From NCBI RefSeq assembly GCF_024802625.1, contig NZ_CP103371.1, positions 744,001 through 808,000 of the forward strand: 64,000 bases of DNA, given 5' to 3'. Positions 31,264 to 40,505 of the stretch are shown one piece after another. The number at the start of each line of letters is the position of its first letter. The first letter of the stretch is position 1. Below the pieces are notes generated by a model. The model did no database searches. It worked only from the letters and a program-made list of their open reading frames with translations, and was not told where the DNA came from. The position numbers were made by a program, and so were the translations under genes. This DNA is from Massilia sp. H6. GTDB lineage: Bacteria > Pseudomonadota > Gammaproteobacteria > Burkholderiales > Burkholderiaceae_D.

Positions 31264-33788
<2,525 letters not shown>

Positions 33789-35174
33789 ATGATCGACACC
33801 CTGGCCGCCGCGGCGCTAGTCCCGGACACCTTTGCACTGCCCCCCGAAGACGACCCGCTGCAGGCGCACTTCCAGCCCGGCGTGGCGCCCGACGAGATCG
33901 AGCAGGTGTATCACCTCAAACGCGCCCAGCCGATGTTGTCGGCGTTCACGGCGCTGTTCCATGGCTCCCAGGATGGCGTGCTGGTGCGCCTGCTGGTGCT
34001 GCGCGAGCTCGCTGGCGACACTGCCAGCCCGGCGTTTTCGCGCGGCGACATCAACAATAAACTGGCTTACCTGAGCGCCGAGAGCCTGGAAACGGTGCTG
34101 AACCGCCTGCGCAGCCACGGCCTGCTGGCCTGGGATGCCCCGGCCGCGGTCTACCGCATCACGCCACTGGCGCGCAATGTGCTGTCCGCGCTGGACACCC
34201 TGATTGCACTGGCCCAGCCAGATGAAGACGACGCCGAGATGGGCTTTTTGCTGTCGCAGGTGGCGGGCGCCCAGGCGGTGGGCGGCATCACGGTGGAACA
34301 ACTCAAGCACCTGCTGGGCCGCCTGGTGGAACTGACCGAGGAGTTCCGCGACGCGATCGCATCCGGCTCCGAATTCAAGTTGCGCACCTCGCAGGCAAAA
34401 TGGCACATGGCCTGCGACTGGGTCGAGAAGGGATCGGTGATCCTGCGGGCGATTACCTCGGACGAGCGCGCCGATGCCGCCACCCACAAGGCGGCGCAGG
34501 CGATCGGCCGCGCCCAGAGCGCGCTGCTGAACATGCAGGGCATGTTCTCGCGCGCCCTGAACCAGATCGAGCGCCAGCGTGTGCACCTGGGCCAGTCCGG
34601 CCTGTCGACCACCGACGTCAAGCGCTGGCTGCTGGCCCACGACGACCTGGCCGGCCTGGCGTCGGACGCGATCGACCGCCCGGTGGTGCCGCTGTTCGGT
34701 ACCCCGGCCGAGATGATCGACGTCGCCGAAACCGAACTGCTGCTCGAACGCGTCACTGCCAGCGGCCCCAAGGGCCTGCCGACCGGCCAGGATGCTCCCC
34801 TGAGCATCAACGACAACCCGGCAATGCAGGGGGAGCTCAACGACTGGATCAACAAGCTGGCCGACTTCGCCAACCTGGGCAACTTCCCCGAGTTTTCGGA
34901 CAGCGGTCCGAAGAAGGTCGCCCTGCACGAGTCGCTGCTGCCGGCCAGTTTCGCCGTCGCCTCTTACCGCGCCTCGCTGCTGCCGCTGCTGGGCGATGCC
35001 GCCGAGGCCAGCCTGCAGGGGGCGACTGCCGAACTGGCGCGCCTGCCGGTGCGCTTCGAGACGCAAGACGACATGATCGCCCTTGACGACCCGGAAGTGG
35101 CGGCCATGTCGATCGCCTCCCTCTCACTGAATCCAGATCCAGCCAGTCCTGAAAGCGTTACGAGCAATGAATGA
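33789..35174 (+). CDS. Condensin-like kleisin-type subunit (MukF/JetA-like)
   Basis: 461 residues, soluble. Residues about 40-135 look like a winged helix (FHGSQDGVLVRLLVLRELAG, INNKLAYLSAESLETVLNRL, GLLAWDAPAAVYRITPLARN), as in the N-terminus of MukF and JetA; the middle is helical and the C-terminus acidic, roughly MukF size (440). The assignment rests mainly on operon order and length, since primary sequence resemblance is slight. It overlaps the next gene by 8 bases. No name is given because the family is only inferred. Confidence 0.6.
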   Translation: MIDTLAAAALVPDTFALPPEDDPLQAHFQPGVAPDEIEQVYHLKRAQPMLSAFTALFHGSQDGVLVRLLVLRELAGDTASPAFSRGDINNKLAYLSAESLETVLNRLRSHGLLAWDAPAAVYRITPLARNVLSALDTLIALAQPDEDDAEMGFLLSQVAGAQAVGGITVEQLKHLLGRLVELTEEFRDAIASGSEFKLRTSQAKWHMACDWVEKGSVILRAITSDERADAATHKAAQAIGRAQSALLNMQGMFSRALNQIERQRVHLGQSGLSTTDVKRWLLAHDDLAGLASDAIDRPVVPLFGTPAEMIDVAETELLLERVTASGPKGLPTGQDAPLSINDNPAMQGELNDWINKLADFANLGNFPEFSDSGPKKVALHESLLPASFAVASYRASLLPLLGDAAEASLQGATAELARLPVRFETQDDMIALDDPEVAAMSIASLSLNPDPASPESVTSNE

Positions 35175-35895
35175 CGATGCACAAATCCTGATCGCGCGCC
35201 TGCTGACGCACCAGACCCTGCGCCGCGACGACAAGATGGTCAAGCGCGCGCTGTCGGACGAGCAGTTCCGCATCGAAGTGGACAAGCGCCTGCTGGAATG
35301 CGGCATGAAGCTGCTCGACAATGTCTACGCCGACCACGTCACGATCGCGCTGCACCGCAATGTCGAACCGAAGATCTTCGGCGCCAAGGACATCTGGCAG
35401 AACAATAACTTCGGCCTGACCCGCGACGGCGTGGCGCTCCTGGTGGTGCTGTGGGCGCAGATCATCCTGCCCAAGCGCGAGCGCCAGGAAACCCACACCA
35501 CCATCAACGACGAGCAGAACGACCTGTTCGAGAAAGATGCGCCGATCCCGCGCGCCGAAGACACCTCGATCGGCATCTCGTACACCGCGCTGCTGTCGGA
35601 CTTCGGCGACAAGCTGGGCAAGAAGACGCGGATGGACATGAATTTGGGTGTGCTGTCCAAGCTCGGCTTCATCGAGCGGCGCGGCGACGTCATCCTCGAA
35701 GGACCCTTGCTCGACCTGATGATGGACACCGATGTACTCAAGGAACGCATCATCAACGGCGCCTTGACCGATGTGTTCAAGCGCGCCCCGCTGGCGGCCG
35801 TCCCGCGCCGGGTGCCGCTTGAGGGCGATGCCGCCAACGATGCCATCGCCGACGCCACTGCCGACACCGGCGACAGCACCGAACCCCTGAATTGA
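35167..35895 (+). CDS. Condensin-like accessory subunit (MukE/JetB-like)
   Basis: 242 residues, close to MukE. A helical N-terminus (RLLTHQTLRRDDKMVKRALS) precedes a mixed region (LTRDGVALLVVLWAQIILPK) and a winged-helix-like C-terminus (LGVLSKLGFIERRGDVILEG). It overlaps the upstream gene by 8 bases and is followed 8 bases later by the SMC ATPase, a layout that implies a stable three-component complex. Function is inferred from this context. Confidence 0.6.
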   Translation: MNDDAQILIARLLTHQTLRRDDKMVKRALSDEQFRIEVDKRLLECGMKLLDNVYADHVTIALHRNVEPKIFGAKDIWQNNNFGLTRDGVALLVVLWAQIILPKRERQETHTTINDEQNDLFEKDAPIPRAEDTSIGISYTALLSDFGDKLGKKTRMDMNLGVLSKLGFIERRGDVILEGPLLDLMMDTDVLKERIINGALTDVFKRAPLAAVPRRVPLEGDAANDAIADATADTGDSTEPLN

Positions 35896-35903
35896 GATAG
35901 CCC

Positions 35904-38726
35904 ATGTTCCACATCAAATCACTCGAACTGGTCCACTGGGATTACTGGCAGCGGATCAAGAACATCCCGCTCGACGCCAAGATCATCACGATCGCCGGCC
36001 AGAACGGCTCGGGCAAGACCACCTTGCTCGACGCGCTGCGCACCTTGTTCGGCCTGGACTGCTCGATGGGCCGCACCTACAAGCACTATGCGCGCCACTC
36101 CGGCCAGCAAAGCGCCTGGATCCGCGCGGTGGTCGACAACAAGGCGGTCGGCAAGCAGCTGTCGAACCGGCCGTTCCGCCACTCCGGCTTCTTTGCCGAC
36201 GACGAAGTCACGCTGTTCTGCCAGATCCAGAAGAACGGCGGCGACTGGAAGCGCCAGTACCTGATGCGCCCGGGGAACGTCGACATCGAAGAAGTCACCG
36301 AAGCGACCGACTGGCTCGGCGTGGAAAACTACCGCAAGCGCCTCGCCTCGGCCGGCCTGTCGCCGGCCATGTCGAAGGTGCTGGCGCTGGAGCAGGGCGA
36401 GACCGACAAGCTGTGCGAATATGCGCCGCGCCAGCTGCTTGACCTGGTGTTCCAGGTCTTCGGCGACAAGGAAGTGCTCGATGCCTACGATGAAGCCAAG
36501 CGCCACCAGCGCGACACCGAGACCGAACTGAAACGTTTCGAGTCCGAGCTGGAAACCTCGCGCATCAATCTCGAGGGCTTGCGCCTGCGCGTGGCCAACC
36601 ACCACCAGTGGTCCGACCTGAGCAAGGAAAAGCACGAGCTGCAAGTAGAAGTGCTGCCGGCGCTGGAATACCACGAGGCGCGCGAAAAGACCGGCGCCAT
36701 CAGCCGCACCCTGCGCGAGGCGCGTAAGCCCTTGCTGCAGGCCGACTCGATCCTGGCCGAGAAGCGCCAGCAGCTGGGGGCGCAGCAGCGCGCCTTGACC
36801 GAGGCGCAGAAGCTGGAAACCCAGCTGGAGCAAGAAGGCAATGAGCTGGCCGTGCGCCTGACCGAAGTCAATCGCCGCCTCAAGCCGCTGGAAAGCCTGA
36901 TCGAGCAAAAGGAACGCCTGCACAAGCTCTCGCTCGATGCCGGCGCCGACATCGCCGAAGTATCCAGGCAGCTCGACGAAAAAGAAGTCGAGCTGGCCAA
37001 GCAGAAGGGCAAGCGCGACGCCATCGGCGCCAAGATCGCCCATGAAGTGGCGACCGTCTCGGCCTTGCAGGGCAAGAGCGCGATGCCGGAACCGGAAGCC
37101 CAGCGCCTGATGCGCCGCGCCCTGCGCGACGAGGGCATCGCACACGCCATGCTGTCGGATATCGTCGAAGTCACGGACCCCAAGTGGCAGGGCGCGGTCG
37201 AGGGTGTGCTGGGCGGCTATGCCTCGGTGGTGTTGCTGGAAAAAGCCAAGGATGCGCCGGCGGCCTACCGCCTGGCCGAGAAGGAGCGCTACCGCCACTT
37301 CATCGTGCCCGATTGCGTCGAGGCGCCGGTGGTCAAGGATGCCAGCTTGCTGTCGGTGGTGCGCTTCTCGGGCAAGGCTCCTGGCTGGCTGATCGACCAG
37401 CTCGAACGCATCGAGCGCGTCGACTCGGTCGACCAAGGCTTCAAGACCCGCGCCGACGAGTGGATCACGCCGGACGCCTACCACCGCGAACGCCGCGGCG
37501 GACGCTCGCTGTTCGTCGAAGCATCGCGCTACCGCTTCGGTTCGGCCGGCAAGACCCAGCGCCTGGAAGCGATCCAGAAGCTGCTGCCCAACCTGGAAGC
37601 ACAGGAAGACGCACTGACGCTAACCATCAGCAAGCTGGCAGGCGAGATCGGTGCGCTCAAGGGCCGCATTGCCGGCGTCGACGCCGCCAAGGAGCTGGCG
37701 GCGCGCCAGGCCGAATTCGAAGAAGCGCTGCGCGCGATCGCTCCGCTCAAGGCCGAGCGCCTGGAAGTGGGTGCGCGCCTGGGCGAGCTGTCGACCCTGA
37801 CCAAGAACGCGACGGTGGCGCGCACCCGCGCCGACACGGTCTGGCAAAACGCGCGCATGGCGCTGTCCGAAGCCGAAGCGGGCATGCGCCTGAATAACCG
37901 CCGCACCATCGAGCAGCGCGCCGAACACGCCAAGGCGCTGCTGGGCCTGCGCCGCAGCTGGCGCCATGTGCCGCAGAACTGGAAGAACGCGGCCTGGCGC
38001 GGCGCGCTGGTGGCCAAGCACCAGAACGCGCACCAGGTCAATTTGCGCGTATCGACGCTGGAGCACGCGCTGGCGCGCGAAGACTGGGAACTGGACGCTA
38101 CCGTCATCGACCAGTACGGCCGCCTGAACGACCAGCTCAGCGGCCGCCAGTCCGAGACCGAAGAACGCCGCTACCAGAACAACCGCGCCATCGAGGCCAC
38201 CGCCAACGCGCGCGGCGCCTATATCGAGCGCCTGCGCTACACGATCAAGGCCTATTCGAAGAACATCAAGGACCTGGGTGAACTGGCCGGCATCGACGTC
38301 CAGGCCGACCCGGTGCGCCTGGAGAACGACGACGTGCAACTGGCGCAAGCCGGCCTGCACGTGCGCTTCAAGTTCGACGGCAAGGACCAGATCGGCATGA
38401 ACGACGGCGAAGCCTCGGGCGGCCAGCAGGTGATGAAGTCGCTGGTGCTCTTGATCGGCTTGTTGAAGTCGGAAGAAGGCTCGGGCGGCTTCGTGTTCAT
38501 CGACGAACCGTTCGCCCACCTGGATATCCGTAACATCCAGCTGGTCGGCGAGTTCCTGAAGAACACCGACGCGCAGTACCTGATGACCACGCCGCTGACG
38601 CACAATACCGACGTCTACGACCCGTCGGAACTGACCTTGATCACCAGCAAGAAAAAGAAGGACGTGCAGTGGGCGCAGCCAATTTTCGTGCTGCAGCGCC
38701 GGAAAGAAGGGGCGAAAGCCGCTTGA
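35904..38726 (+). CDS. Short SMC/MukB-like ATPase
   Basis: 940 residues. ABC head N-half with Walker A GQNGSGKTT (32-40); coiled coils about 190-400 and 550-800; a hinge-like region about 410-545 (AMLSDIVEVTDPKWQGAVEG, VLGGYASVVLLEKAKDAP); C-half with signature SGGQQ (838-842), Walker B FVFIDEP (863-869) and D-loop AHLD. The arms are much shorter than in MukB (about 1490), nearer MksB or JetC. It should be the motor of a three-part chromosome-organising or plasmid-defence complex. Downstream there is no JetD/MksG-like nuclease. A terminator follows directly. Confidence 0.85.
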   Translation: MFHIKSLELVHWDYWQRIKNIPLDAKIITIAGQNGSGKTTLLDALRTLFGLDCSMGRTYKHYARHSGQQSAWIRAVVDNKAVGKQLSNRPFRHSGFFADDEVTLFCQIQKNGGDWKRQYLMRPGNVDIEEVTEATDWLGVENYRKRLASAGLSPAMSKVLALEQGETDKLCEYAPRQLLDLVFQVFGDKEVLDAYDEAKRHQRDTETELKRFESELETSRINLEGLRLRVANHHQWSDLSKEKHELQVEVLPALEYHEAREKTGAISRTLREARKPLLQADSILAEKRQQLGAQQRALTEAQKLETQLEQEGNELAVRLTEVNRRLKPLESLIEQKERLHKLSLDAGADIAEVSRQLDEKEVELAKQKGKRDAIGAKIAHEVATVSALQGKSAMPEPEAQRLMRRALRDEGIAHAMLSDIVEVTDPKWQGAVEGVLGGYASVVLLEKAKDAPAAYRLAEKERYRHFIVPDCVEAPVVKDASLLSVVRFSGKAPGWLIDQLERIERVDSVDQGFKTRADEWITPDAYHRERRGGRSLFVEASRYRFGSAGKTQRLEAIQKLLPNLEAQEDALTLTISKLAGEIGALKGRIAGVDAAKELAARQAEFEEALRAIAPLKAERLEVGARLGELSTLTKNATVARTRADTVWQNARMALSEAEAGMRLNNRRTIEQRAEHAKALLGLRRSWRHVPQNWKNAAWRGALVAKHQNAHQVNLRVSTLEHALAREDWELDATVIDQYGRLNDQLSGRQSETEERRYQNNRAIEATANARGAYIERLRYTIKAYSKNIKDLGELAGIDVQADPVRLENDDVQLAQAGLHVRFKFDGKDQIGMNDGEASGGQQVMKSLVLLIGLLKSEEGSGGFVFIDEPFAHLDIRNIQLVGEFLKNTDAQYLMTTPLTHNTDVYDPSELTLITSKKKKDVQWAQPIFVLQRRKEGAKAA

Positions 38727-38731
38727 AGCAG

Positions 38732-38754
38732 GGGAGCCGGAAGGCTCCCTTTTT
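38732..38754 (+). terminator. Rho-independent terminator of the condensin-like operon
   Basis: Stem GGGAGCC-GGAA-GGCTCCC (38732-38749) followed by TTTTT (38750-38754), 5 bases after the SMC stop codon. This ends the operon at three genes. Confidence 0.9.
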
Positions 38755-39098: not shown

Positions 39099-40505
39099 AT
39101 GCTGGACACCCTGCGTCCCGATCCCACCTTTCATCCATCGCCGCGGCTGGCAATGGAAGCCGAACCCGAACAACTGGCCTACACGGTGCTGCTGTCGCCC
39201 GACCGTGCGCGGCCCGACGCGCTGGCCGTGATCGACGTCGATCCGCAATCCGCGACCTATGGCACGGTCATCAGCCAGCTCGTCATGCCGCATACGGGCG
39301 ACGAATTCCATCATTTCGGCTGGAATGCCTGCAGTTCGGCGCTGTCGCCGATGTCGGGCCACGCGCACCTGCAGCGCCGCTATCTCATCATTCCCGGGAT
39401 CCGCTCATCGCGCATCTATATCGTCGATACCCAGCCCGATCCGAGAAACCCCATCCTGGTCAAGACCATCGAGCCGGAAGAACTGATGCGCAAGACCGGC
39501 TACTCGCGTCCGCACACCGTGCATTGCGGCCCGGAAGGCATCTACATCAGCACCCTGGGCGGGGCGGGGGCGGACGGCACGCAGGGGCCGCCAGGGGTCT
39601 TCATCATGGATTGCGAAAGCTTCGAGATCCTGGGGCGCTGGGAGATCGAGCGCGGACCGCAAAAAATGCATTACGATTTTTGGTGGAACCTGCCGCGCGA
39701 CTATATGGTCTCGAGCGAATGGGGCTTGCCGCCGCAGTTCGAACACGGCATCGTCGCCGAAGACCTGCTCGCCAATCGCTACGGCCACTCGGTGCATTTC
39801 TGGAACCTGCGCGAGCGCAAGCACGTCCAGACCATCGACCTCGGCGCCCACCACCAGATGGCGCTCGAGGTCCGTCCGGCGCACGATCCCACGCGCGAGT
39901 ACGGTTTCCTGGGCGTGGTGATCGATACCACCAACCTGGAAGGTTCGATCTGGACCTGGTGGCGCGAAAACGGCAGCTTCCATATCCGCAAGACCGCAAC
40001 CATCCCGGCCGAGCCGGCCGATGCCGACCAGCTTCCGGCGCTGCTCAAAGGCTTCGGCGCGGTGCCGCCCCTGGTCAGCGATATCGACCTGTCCCTCGAC
40101 GACCGCTTTTTATATGTGGCGTGCTGGGGAACCGGCGAGCTGCGGCAATACGATGTGAGCGATCCGTTCGCGCCCAGGCTCACCGGCAGCGTACGTATCG
40201 GCGGCATTGCGCGGCATGCACGCCATCCGAACGGCCGGCCATATGGCGGCGGCCCGCAGATGACCGAAATCAGCCGGGACGGCAAGCGCGTGTATTTCAC
40301 CAATTCGCTCTACAGCAGTTGGGACGCGCAGTTTTATCCGGAGGGCGTGCCCGGCGTGCAGCTGATGTGCCATGTCGGCGCGAACGGTGGAATCGAACTG
40401 GACCCGGCGTTCTACGTGGACTTCGGGCCGGACTACGCGGCGCACCAGGTTCGCCTGCAAGGCGGCGACTGCTCGACCGATTCATTCTGCTATCCGTCGG
40501 CTTGA
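39099..40505 (+). CDS. SBP56 family methanethiol oxidase / selenium-binding protein
   Basis: 468 residues. SBP56 homologues (MtoX in Hyphomicrobium) oxidise methanethiol to formaldehyde, H2S and H2O2 and are copper-containing. Conserved features: GDEFHHFGWNACSS, SGHAHLQRRYLIIPGIRSSR, YSRPHTVHCGPEGIYISTLG and QKMHYDFWWN, with many histidines for the metal. There is no visible signal peptide. The start at 39099 was chosen because GAGG precedes it, not 38994. It overlaps the membrane protein gene by 4 bases (TTGA). Confidence 0.9.
   Translation: MLDTLRPDPTFHPSPRLAMEAEPEQLAYTVLLSPDRARPDALAVIDVDPQSATYGTVISQLVMPHTGDEFHHFGWNACSSALSPMSGHAHLQRRYLIIPGIRSSRIYIVDTQPDPRNPILVKTIEPEELMRKTGYSRPHTVHCGPEGIYISTLGGAGADGTQGPPGVFIMDCESFEILGRWEIERGPQKMHYDFWWNLPRDYMVSSEWGLPPQFEHGIVAEDLLANRYGHSVHFWNLRERKHVQTIDLGAHHQMALEVRPAHDPTREYGFLGVVIDTTNLEGSIWTWWRENGSFHIRKTATIPAEPADADQLPALLKGFGAVPPLVSDIDLSLDDRFLYVACWGTGELRQYDVSDPFAPRLTGSVRIGGIARHARHPNGRPYGGGPQMTEISRDGKRVYFTNSLYSSWDAQFYPEGVPGVQLMCHVGANGGIELDPAFYVDFGPDYAAHQVRLQGGDCSTDSFCYPSA

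Follow-up and report, generated by a model that had tools for sequence, protein, structure and literature searches.

A nuclease-free three-gene SMC operon of Massilia, related to MukBEF-like (Mks) and Wadjet systems, with a probable role on the chromosome

Introduction

How the structural maintenance of chromosomes (SMC) complexes that destroy plasmids relate to those that organise chromosomes is an open question (PMC10586767). Pseudomonas aeruginosa MksBEF is a three-subunit, MukBEF-like complex without MksG, present beside Smc-ScpAB, for which a role in chromosome organisation and segregation has been reported (PMC7485682, PMC10586767); the Corynebacterium glutamicum complex, which has MksG, works on plasmids and does not act on nucleoid architecture (PMC7083940). 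Escherichia coli MukBEF, which belongs to the same group as MksBEF, has no nuclease, and nor do several other members, according to a survey of the group that includes operons without MksG (PMC7617805); that the Wadjet (Mks) group has nuclease-free members is stated there and elsewhere (PMC7617805, PMC10586767). Here, we analyse a three-gene operon, designated F-E-B, found in a stretch of 64,000 nucleotides (nt) from Massilia sp. H6 (GCF_024802625.1, NZ_CP103371.1, positions 744,001-808,000, forward strand; hereafter, the window). The operon probably encodes an SMC complex that lacks a nuclease and belongs to the MukBEF-like (Mks) or Wadjet group; its most likely task is to organise the cell's own chromosome.

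Results

B is an SMC ATPase with a JetC-type hinge

The initial annotation, made from the letters of the window alone, described a condensin-like operon without a nuclease subunit. The three open reading frames (ORFs) were recovered exactly where it had placed them, and their products follow the order kleisin, KITE (kleisin-interacting tandem winged-helix element) and SMC, the first two assignments being graded below (Table 1). The F-E-B order is intact in relatives with enough flanking sequence, except at three loci (L073, L119 and L121), and a chance grouping is excluded, since distant relatives have the three genes together in unchanged order.

B has a Walker A motif (GQNGSGKTT, residues 32-40), a signature (EASGGQQ, residues 836-842) and a Walker B motif (FVFIDEP), together with a hinge of the SMC type; the Walker A, signature and Walker B motifs are invariant across relatives down to ~40% identity. 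B matches SMC_N in Pfam (E 1.8e-13) and JetC1 in PADLOC (E 5e-16), and its best PADLOC models are JetC. The generic SMC_N, RecF and Rad50 profiles all match the head of B, and these matches say little about family. More informative is the hinge, the profile of which aligns with JetC of the linked JetABCD locus L041 over ~200 columns (96% probability, E 1e-9); this homology assigns B to the Wadjet (Mks) group and not to RecN or SbcC. Thus, B combines a complete ATP-binding cassette (ABC) head with a hinge of the group's type. Similarity to the MukB head is weak, PF04310 being matched in five of 10 relatives. No full-length RecN or SbcC-Rad50 match was found for B, only similarity in the head domain, and an SbcD-like neighbour is absent from the locus.

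E is a predicted KITE subunit and F a probable kleisin

Family searches, called for by the initial annotation, recognised neither of the two small proteins: the window's F and E gave no family above noise in Pfam, PADLOC or NCBIfam, and in Pfam the MukF family is unmatched by F, the MukE family by E, and the ScpA and ScpB families by both. Relatives of E show weak matches to the DUF4194 (MukE-like) and JetB profiles, and some F proteins weak matches to PADLOC JukB. An AlphaFold model of E, built from 34 sequences (predicted local distance difference test, pLDDT, 79), has the fold of a tandem winged-helix protein; among solved structures, the Wadjet JetB chains 8as8_C and 8dk1 match best, with a Foldseek E of 2e-4 and, over residues 1-208, Z scores of 12.2 and 11.7. 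A direct comparison of the E profile with one JetB sequence was negative. From its modelled fold, E is predicted to be a KITE subunit of the MksE/JetB type.

The model of F, built from 40 sequences (pLDDT 79), shows an N-terminal winged-helix domain, a helical middle part and a small, winged-helix-like C-terminal end. Its best folds are MukF chains, with Z 11.3 over residues 57-265 (60-447 in one alignment), a root-mean-square deviation of 13 Å and a Foldseek E of 0.05, and on this modelled likeness F is a probable kleisin. Sequence-level proof of a kleisin was sought in Pfam, NCBIfam, PADLOC, a PDB sequence search and an hhalign comparison with one JetA, all of which were negative; the control scored likewise low. 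Since F and E are not recognised by current Pfam and PADLOC models, operons of this kind are probably annotated as an orphan 'AAA family ATPase' accompanied by hypothetical proteins.

The nuclease is absent from the genome and the genus

The absence of a JetD/MksG nuclease, noted at first for the surroundings of the operon, extends in profile searches to the rest of the genome. Neither JetD_C nor DUF2399 (PF09983, PF09664) has a match anywhere in the genome, and a JetD profile built from the B-linked nucleases described below found nothing there and nothing convincing in 61 congeners; a single match in one congener (G060, E 0.009, 50 residues) was taken as noise. A decayed nuclease downstream of B was also considered, and tblastn with the JetDs of this operon's relatives gave no match in the window. 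Among the close relatives examined, of the same genus and family, none has a JetD-like gene next to the operon.

Some more distant relatives carry a JetD homologue

In a scattered subset of relatives, the gene directly 3' of B encodes a JetD homologue of ~410 amino acids (aa). These proteins match the JetD models of PADLOC, with E values as low as 1e-21, the better-scoring ones also match DUF2399, JetD_C and the Spo11/TopoVI Toprim, and profile comparison with JetD of L041 gave E 1.6e-8. The Toprim residues E274, D323 and D325 (numbering of L032) are invariant in all 11 B-linked nucleases aligned. When at least 1.3 kb of sequence downstream of B was required for a locus to be called nuclease-free, 141 distinct B proteins divided into 20 with a nuclease directly after, ~111 without and 10 unclassified. 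An apparent 2,569-aa fusion involving B in G731 (L159) proved to be an artefact of masked N bases, and this locus was not counted as nuclease-free. The initial annotation would have read an adjacent JetD in close relatives as evidence against it: none occurs in the close relatives examined, of the same genus and family, whereas one is present in about 20 that are more distantly related. This makes the operon a nuclease-free branch within a Wadjet lineage and not separate from Wadjet.

A tree of 65 B proteins requires at least 11 changes of nuclease state, and a single nuclease-bearing clade is rejected (approximately unbiased test, p-AU 2.5e-33); the family of the window's genome falls in a branch entirely without nuclease. 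Distances between B proteins correlate with those between nucleases (r 0.85, Mantel p 0.0005), with near-equal identities in several pairs, which suggests a long association. Other pairs are mismatched: the B proteins of L110 and L121 are 87% identical and their nucleases 52%, and those of L171 and L174 74% and 45%, respectively, which suggests that the nuclease was replaced or re-acquired. Thus, the nuclease module is labile, and loss, gain and exchange have probably all occurred; we make no claim as to the number of losses. In sum, the operon is a member of a divergent Wadjet (Mks) lineage in which the nuclease was repeatedly lost, gained or replaced.

Two loci are recorded here in their own right. 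L041 (3256-10053), in an order-level relative, is a separate and complete JetABCD locus (499, 226, 1151 and 389 aa), and the same genome also has, at L034, a four-gene form of the window-type operon. At L090 (14217-14765), a partial gene from the B-linked nuclease family, cut by the end of the locus, lies ~5.4 kb downstream of B.

The operon is fixed in the genus and under purifying selection

B was found in all 61 same-genus genomes, usually in single copy, with fragments only in two incomplete assemblies. Across these congeners the B frames are full-length with intact catalytic motifs, and dN/dS (the ratio of nonsynonymous to synonymous substitution rates) of B and E, at 0.07-0.22, indicates purifying selection. 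Three other genera of the family also have B; in the wider order it is confined to a minority of genomes, 39 of 250 in a broader sample. Named genomes, when scanned, yielded at least 430 loci, of which 80 were retained; B loci occur in Chitinibacteraceae, Chromobacteriaceae, Rhodocyclales, Nitrosomonadales, Rhodanobacteraceae and others. Plasmids almost never carry the gene: only two of 72,556 plasmid records have B, both copies are partial, and the one inspected, annotated as 'AAA family ATPase', adjoins transposases.

ScpA was found elsewhere in the window's genome, and 78 of the 81 genomes surveyed have an ScpA match. An order-level relative with a complete, single-contig genome (G075, locus L036) has F-E-B without a nuclease and no ScpA match; it is possible that Smc-ScpAB has been replaced there, or that its ScpA has diverged.

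The surroundings of the operon differ between lineages. With gene names read off the sequences, it lies beside rplU-rpmA-obgE in Chitinibacteraceae and some Chromobacteriaceae, and near prfB and lysS in Rhodocyclales. A conserved gene of ~220 aa without a Pfam match sits between F and E in L047, L049, L050, L054 and L055 (Chitinibacteraceae-type), and a gene of ~368 aa, by eye a TrmA-like tRNA (uracil-5-)methyltransferase, between E and B in L094, L095, L107 and L118 (Thauera-type). In Rhodocyclales loci a GGDEF-domain gene is often found downstream of B on the same strand (e.g., L082:9028-10203).

A terminator closes the transcription unit

The three genes lie on the same strand, with an overlap of 8 bases between F and E and a gap of 8 bases between E and B. 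A strong terminator directly after the ATPase gene, part of the initial annotation, is borne out by a GC-rich hairpin that begins 5 nt past the stop codon of B (RNA fold of -24.1 kcal/mol, z -3.0); an automatic terminator scan of the window did not include it among its listed sites. In an exact-stem scan, 16 of 30 same-genus loci, including that of the window, have a hairpin starting at most 7 nt from the B stop, mostly with a T-rich tail, so that in this genus B is commonly the last gene of the unit. The next gene, correctly described at the outset as unrelated, codes for SBP56 and fills the slot in which a nuclease gene would be expected.

Table 1. Features of the operon and its flanks (positions in the window)
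Feature	Position	Strand	Description
mksF-like gene (F)	33789..35174	+	461 aa, ORF; kleisin-like subunit (probable)
mksE-like gene (E)	35167..35895	+	242 aa, ORF; predicted KITE subunit, tandem winged helices
mksB-like gene (B)	35904..38726	+	940 aa, ORF; SMC ATPase, complete ABC head, short coiled-coil arms, JetC-type hinge
Intrinsic terminator	38731..38753	+	GGGAGCC-GGAA-GGCTCCC then TTTTT; closes the three-gene unit
Catalase-peroxidase (KatG-like), divergently oriented upstream neighbour	31264..33534	-	Pfam peroxidase E 2.7e-67; outside the system
SBP56 selenium-binding protein, downstream neighbour	39102..40505	+	Pfam SBP56 E 1.2e-177; unrelated

Discussion

A nuclease-free set of motor, KITE and kleisin-like subunit that is fixed in the genus and coexists with ScpA is best read as an accessory condensin, and the presence of the operon in every congener checked makes a role on the cell's own chromosome, rather than in defence, the most likely one. 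We infer that the three proteins assemble into a complex, that it extrudes loops and acts on the chromosome, and that the nuclease was lost rather than gained. B would be the ATP-driven SMC motor, F a kleisin bridging the heads of B, and E a KITE gripping DNA; most probably, the complex is loaded on the cell's own DNA, extrudes loops there and aids chromosome organisation and segregation. By analogy, it would work alongside canonical Smc-ScpAB as P. aeruginosa MksBEF does, and share its chromosomal role with E. coli MukBEF. The operon probably descends from four-gene Wadjet operons, or shares a recent ancestry with them, JetD having been lost or detached; removal of JetD would abolish plasmid cutting and keep the motor.

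The main rival is a defence that needs no nuclease of its own, in which the complex would sense small circular DNA by loop extrusion and then silence or sequester it, or pass it to a nuclease encoded elsewhere. The operon is clearly akin to Wadjet, a system directed at plasmid DNA, JetC models are the best PADLOC matches of B, relatives with a JetD that looks active from its residues exist, and Smc5/6 is an SMC complex that silences extrachromosomal DNA without a nuclease (PMC10586767). Nevertheless, we regard this explanation as unlikely: defence genes usually have a patchy, mobile distribution, whereas the operon is fixed genus-wide and almost absent from plasmids, and the genome has no JetD_C, no DUF2399 and no JetD of the kind found in this operon's relatives, so that a nuclease supplied from elsewhere, an option raised in the initial annotation, gains no support from searches for a JetD-type enzyme. 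That the operon is a decaying, functionless remnant of a Wadjet system after nuclease loss is strongly disfavoured; nuclease-free forms do occur repeatedly among the relatives, but the low dN/dS, the intact catalytic motifs and the full-length frames in congeners all speak against decay. Equally improbable is that B is a repair protein of the RecN/RecF/SbcC-Rad50 type preceded by two unrelated regulators, an outcome that the initial annotation had itself named as contrary to its view. The generic head matches to SMC_N, RecF and Rad50 models would fit such a protein, but not the JetC-type hinge, the modelled KITE fold of E with JetB as its best match, the linkage of F-E-B in well-covered relatives or the JetD homologue that is the fourth gene in some of them.

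Several points weigh against a chromosome-organising complex of this group. The assignment of F leans on a model of medium confidence, and MarR-type winged-helix proteins score only ~1 Z unit below MukF over its N-terminal domain. A defence gene that has become fixed could likewise be conserved throughout the genus, and coexistence with Smc-ScpAB is read from the presence of ScpA. In addition, 148 Pseudomonadaceae genomes, among which P. aeruginosa was not identified (an azurin marker search of one genus found none), contained no close full-length relative of B, the search giving only generic, 1,105-aa JetC-like frames and hinge matches; the likeness to P. aeruginosa MksBEF is thus one of architecture.

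An undescribed subtype, suggested in the initial annotation, is supported only in part: nuclease-free Wadjet (Mks) members have already been covered (PMC7617805, PMC10586767) and the kind is known (PMC7617805), the part that appears useful being a clade in which closely related motors occur both with a nuclease and without one. Such a clade offers natural pairs, a near-identical motor with and without nuclease, in which the effect of the nuclease could be tested, and it includes an entire genus that has the nuclease-free form at fixation. A bolder and rather doubtful extension is that a Beta-/Gammaproteobacterial Wadjet lineage repeatedly shed its nuclease and became a fixed housekeeping chromosome organiser, universal in the genus of the window, which in some members (G075) might even have displaced Smc-ScpAB, as MukBEF did in enterobacteria.

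Among known systems, Smc-ScpAB shares with the operon the logic of SMC, kleisin and KITE, but its genes are separate, its ScpA is encoded elsewhere in the window's genome, and F and E match neither the ScpA nor the ScpB family. The window's F and E resemble, in their predicted folds, MukF and MukE of E. coli; however, MukBEF stands in for Smc-ScpAB, whereas the window's genome has ScpA, and MukB, at ~1,490 aa, is much longer than B. Type I Wadjet (MksBEFG, JetABCD) has the same kleisin-KITE-SMC gene order, a hinge in JetC like that of B and a fold in JetB like that predicted for E. It differs in that the window's genome and genus are without JetD, that F and E are too diverged for the Wadjet models, and that B, described at the outset as having short arms, has 940 aa, against 1096-1151 aa for the JetC proteins of this analysis; in a minority of the operon's relatives the fourth place is taken, as in Wadjet, by a JetD homologue with the conserved E and DxD residues of the Toprim domain. 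With P. aeruginosa MksBEF, the operon shares a three-subunit, nuclease-free composition.

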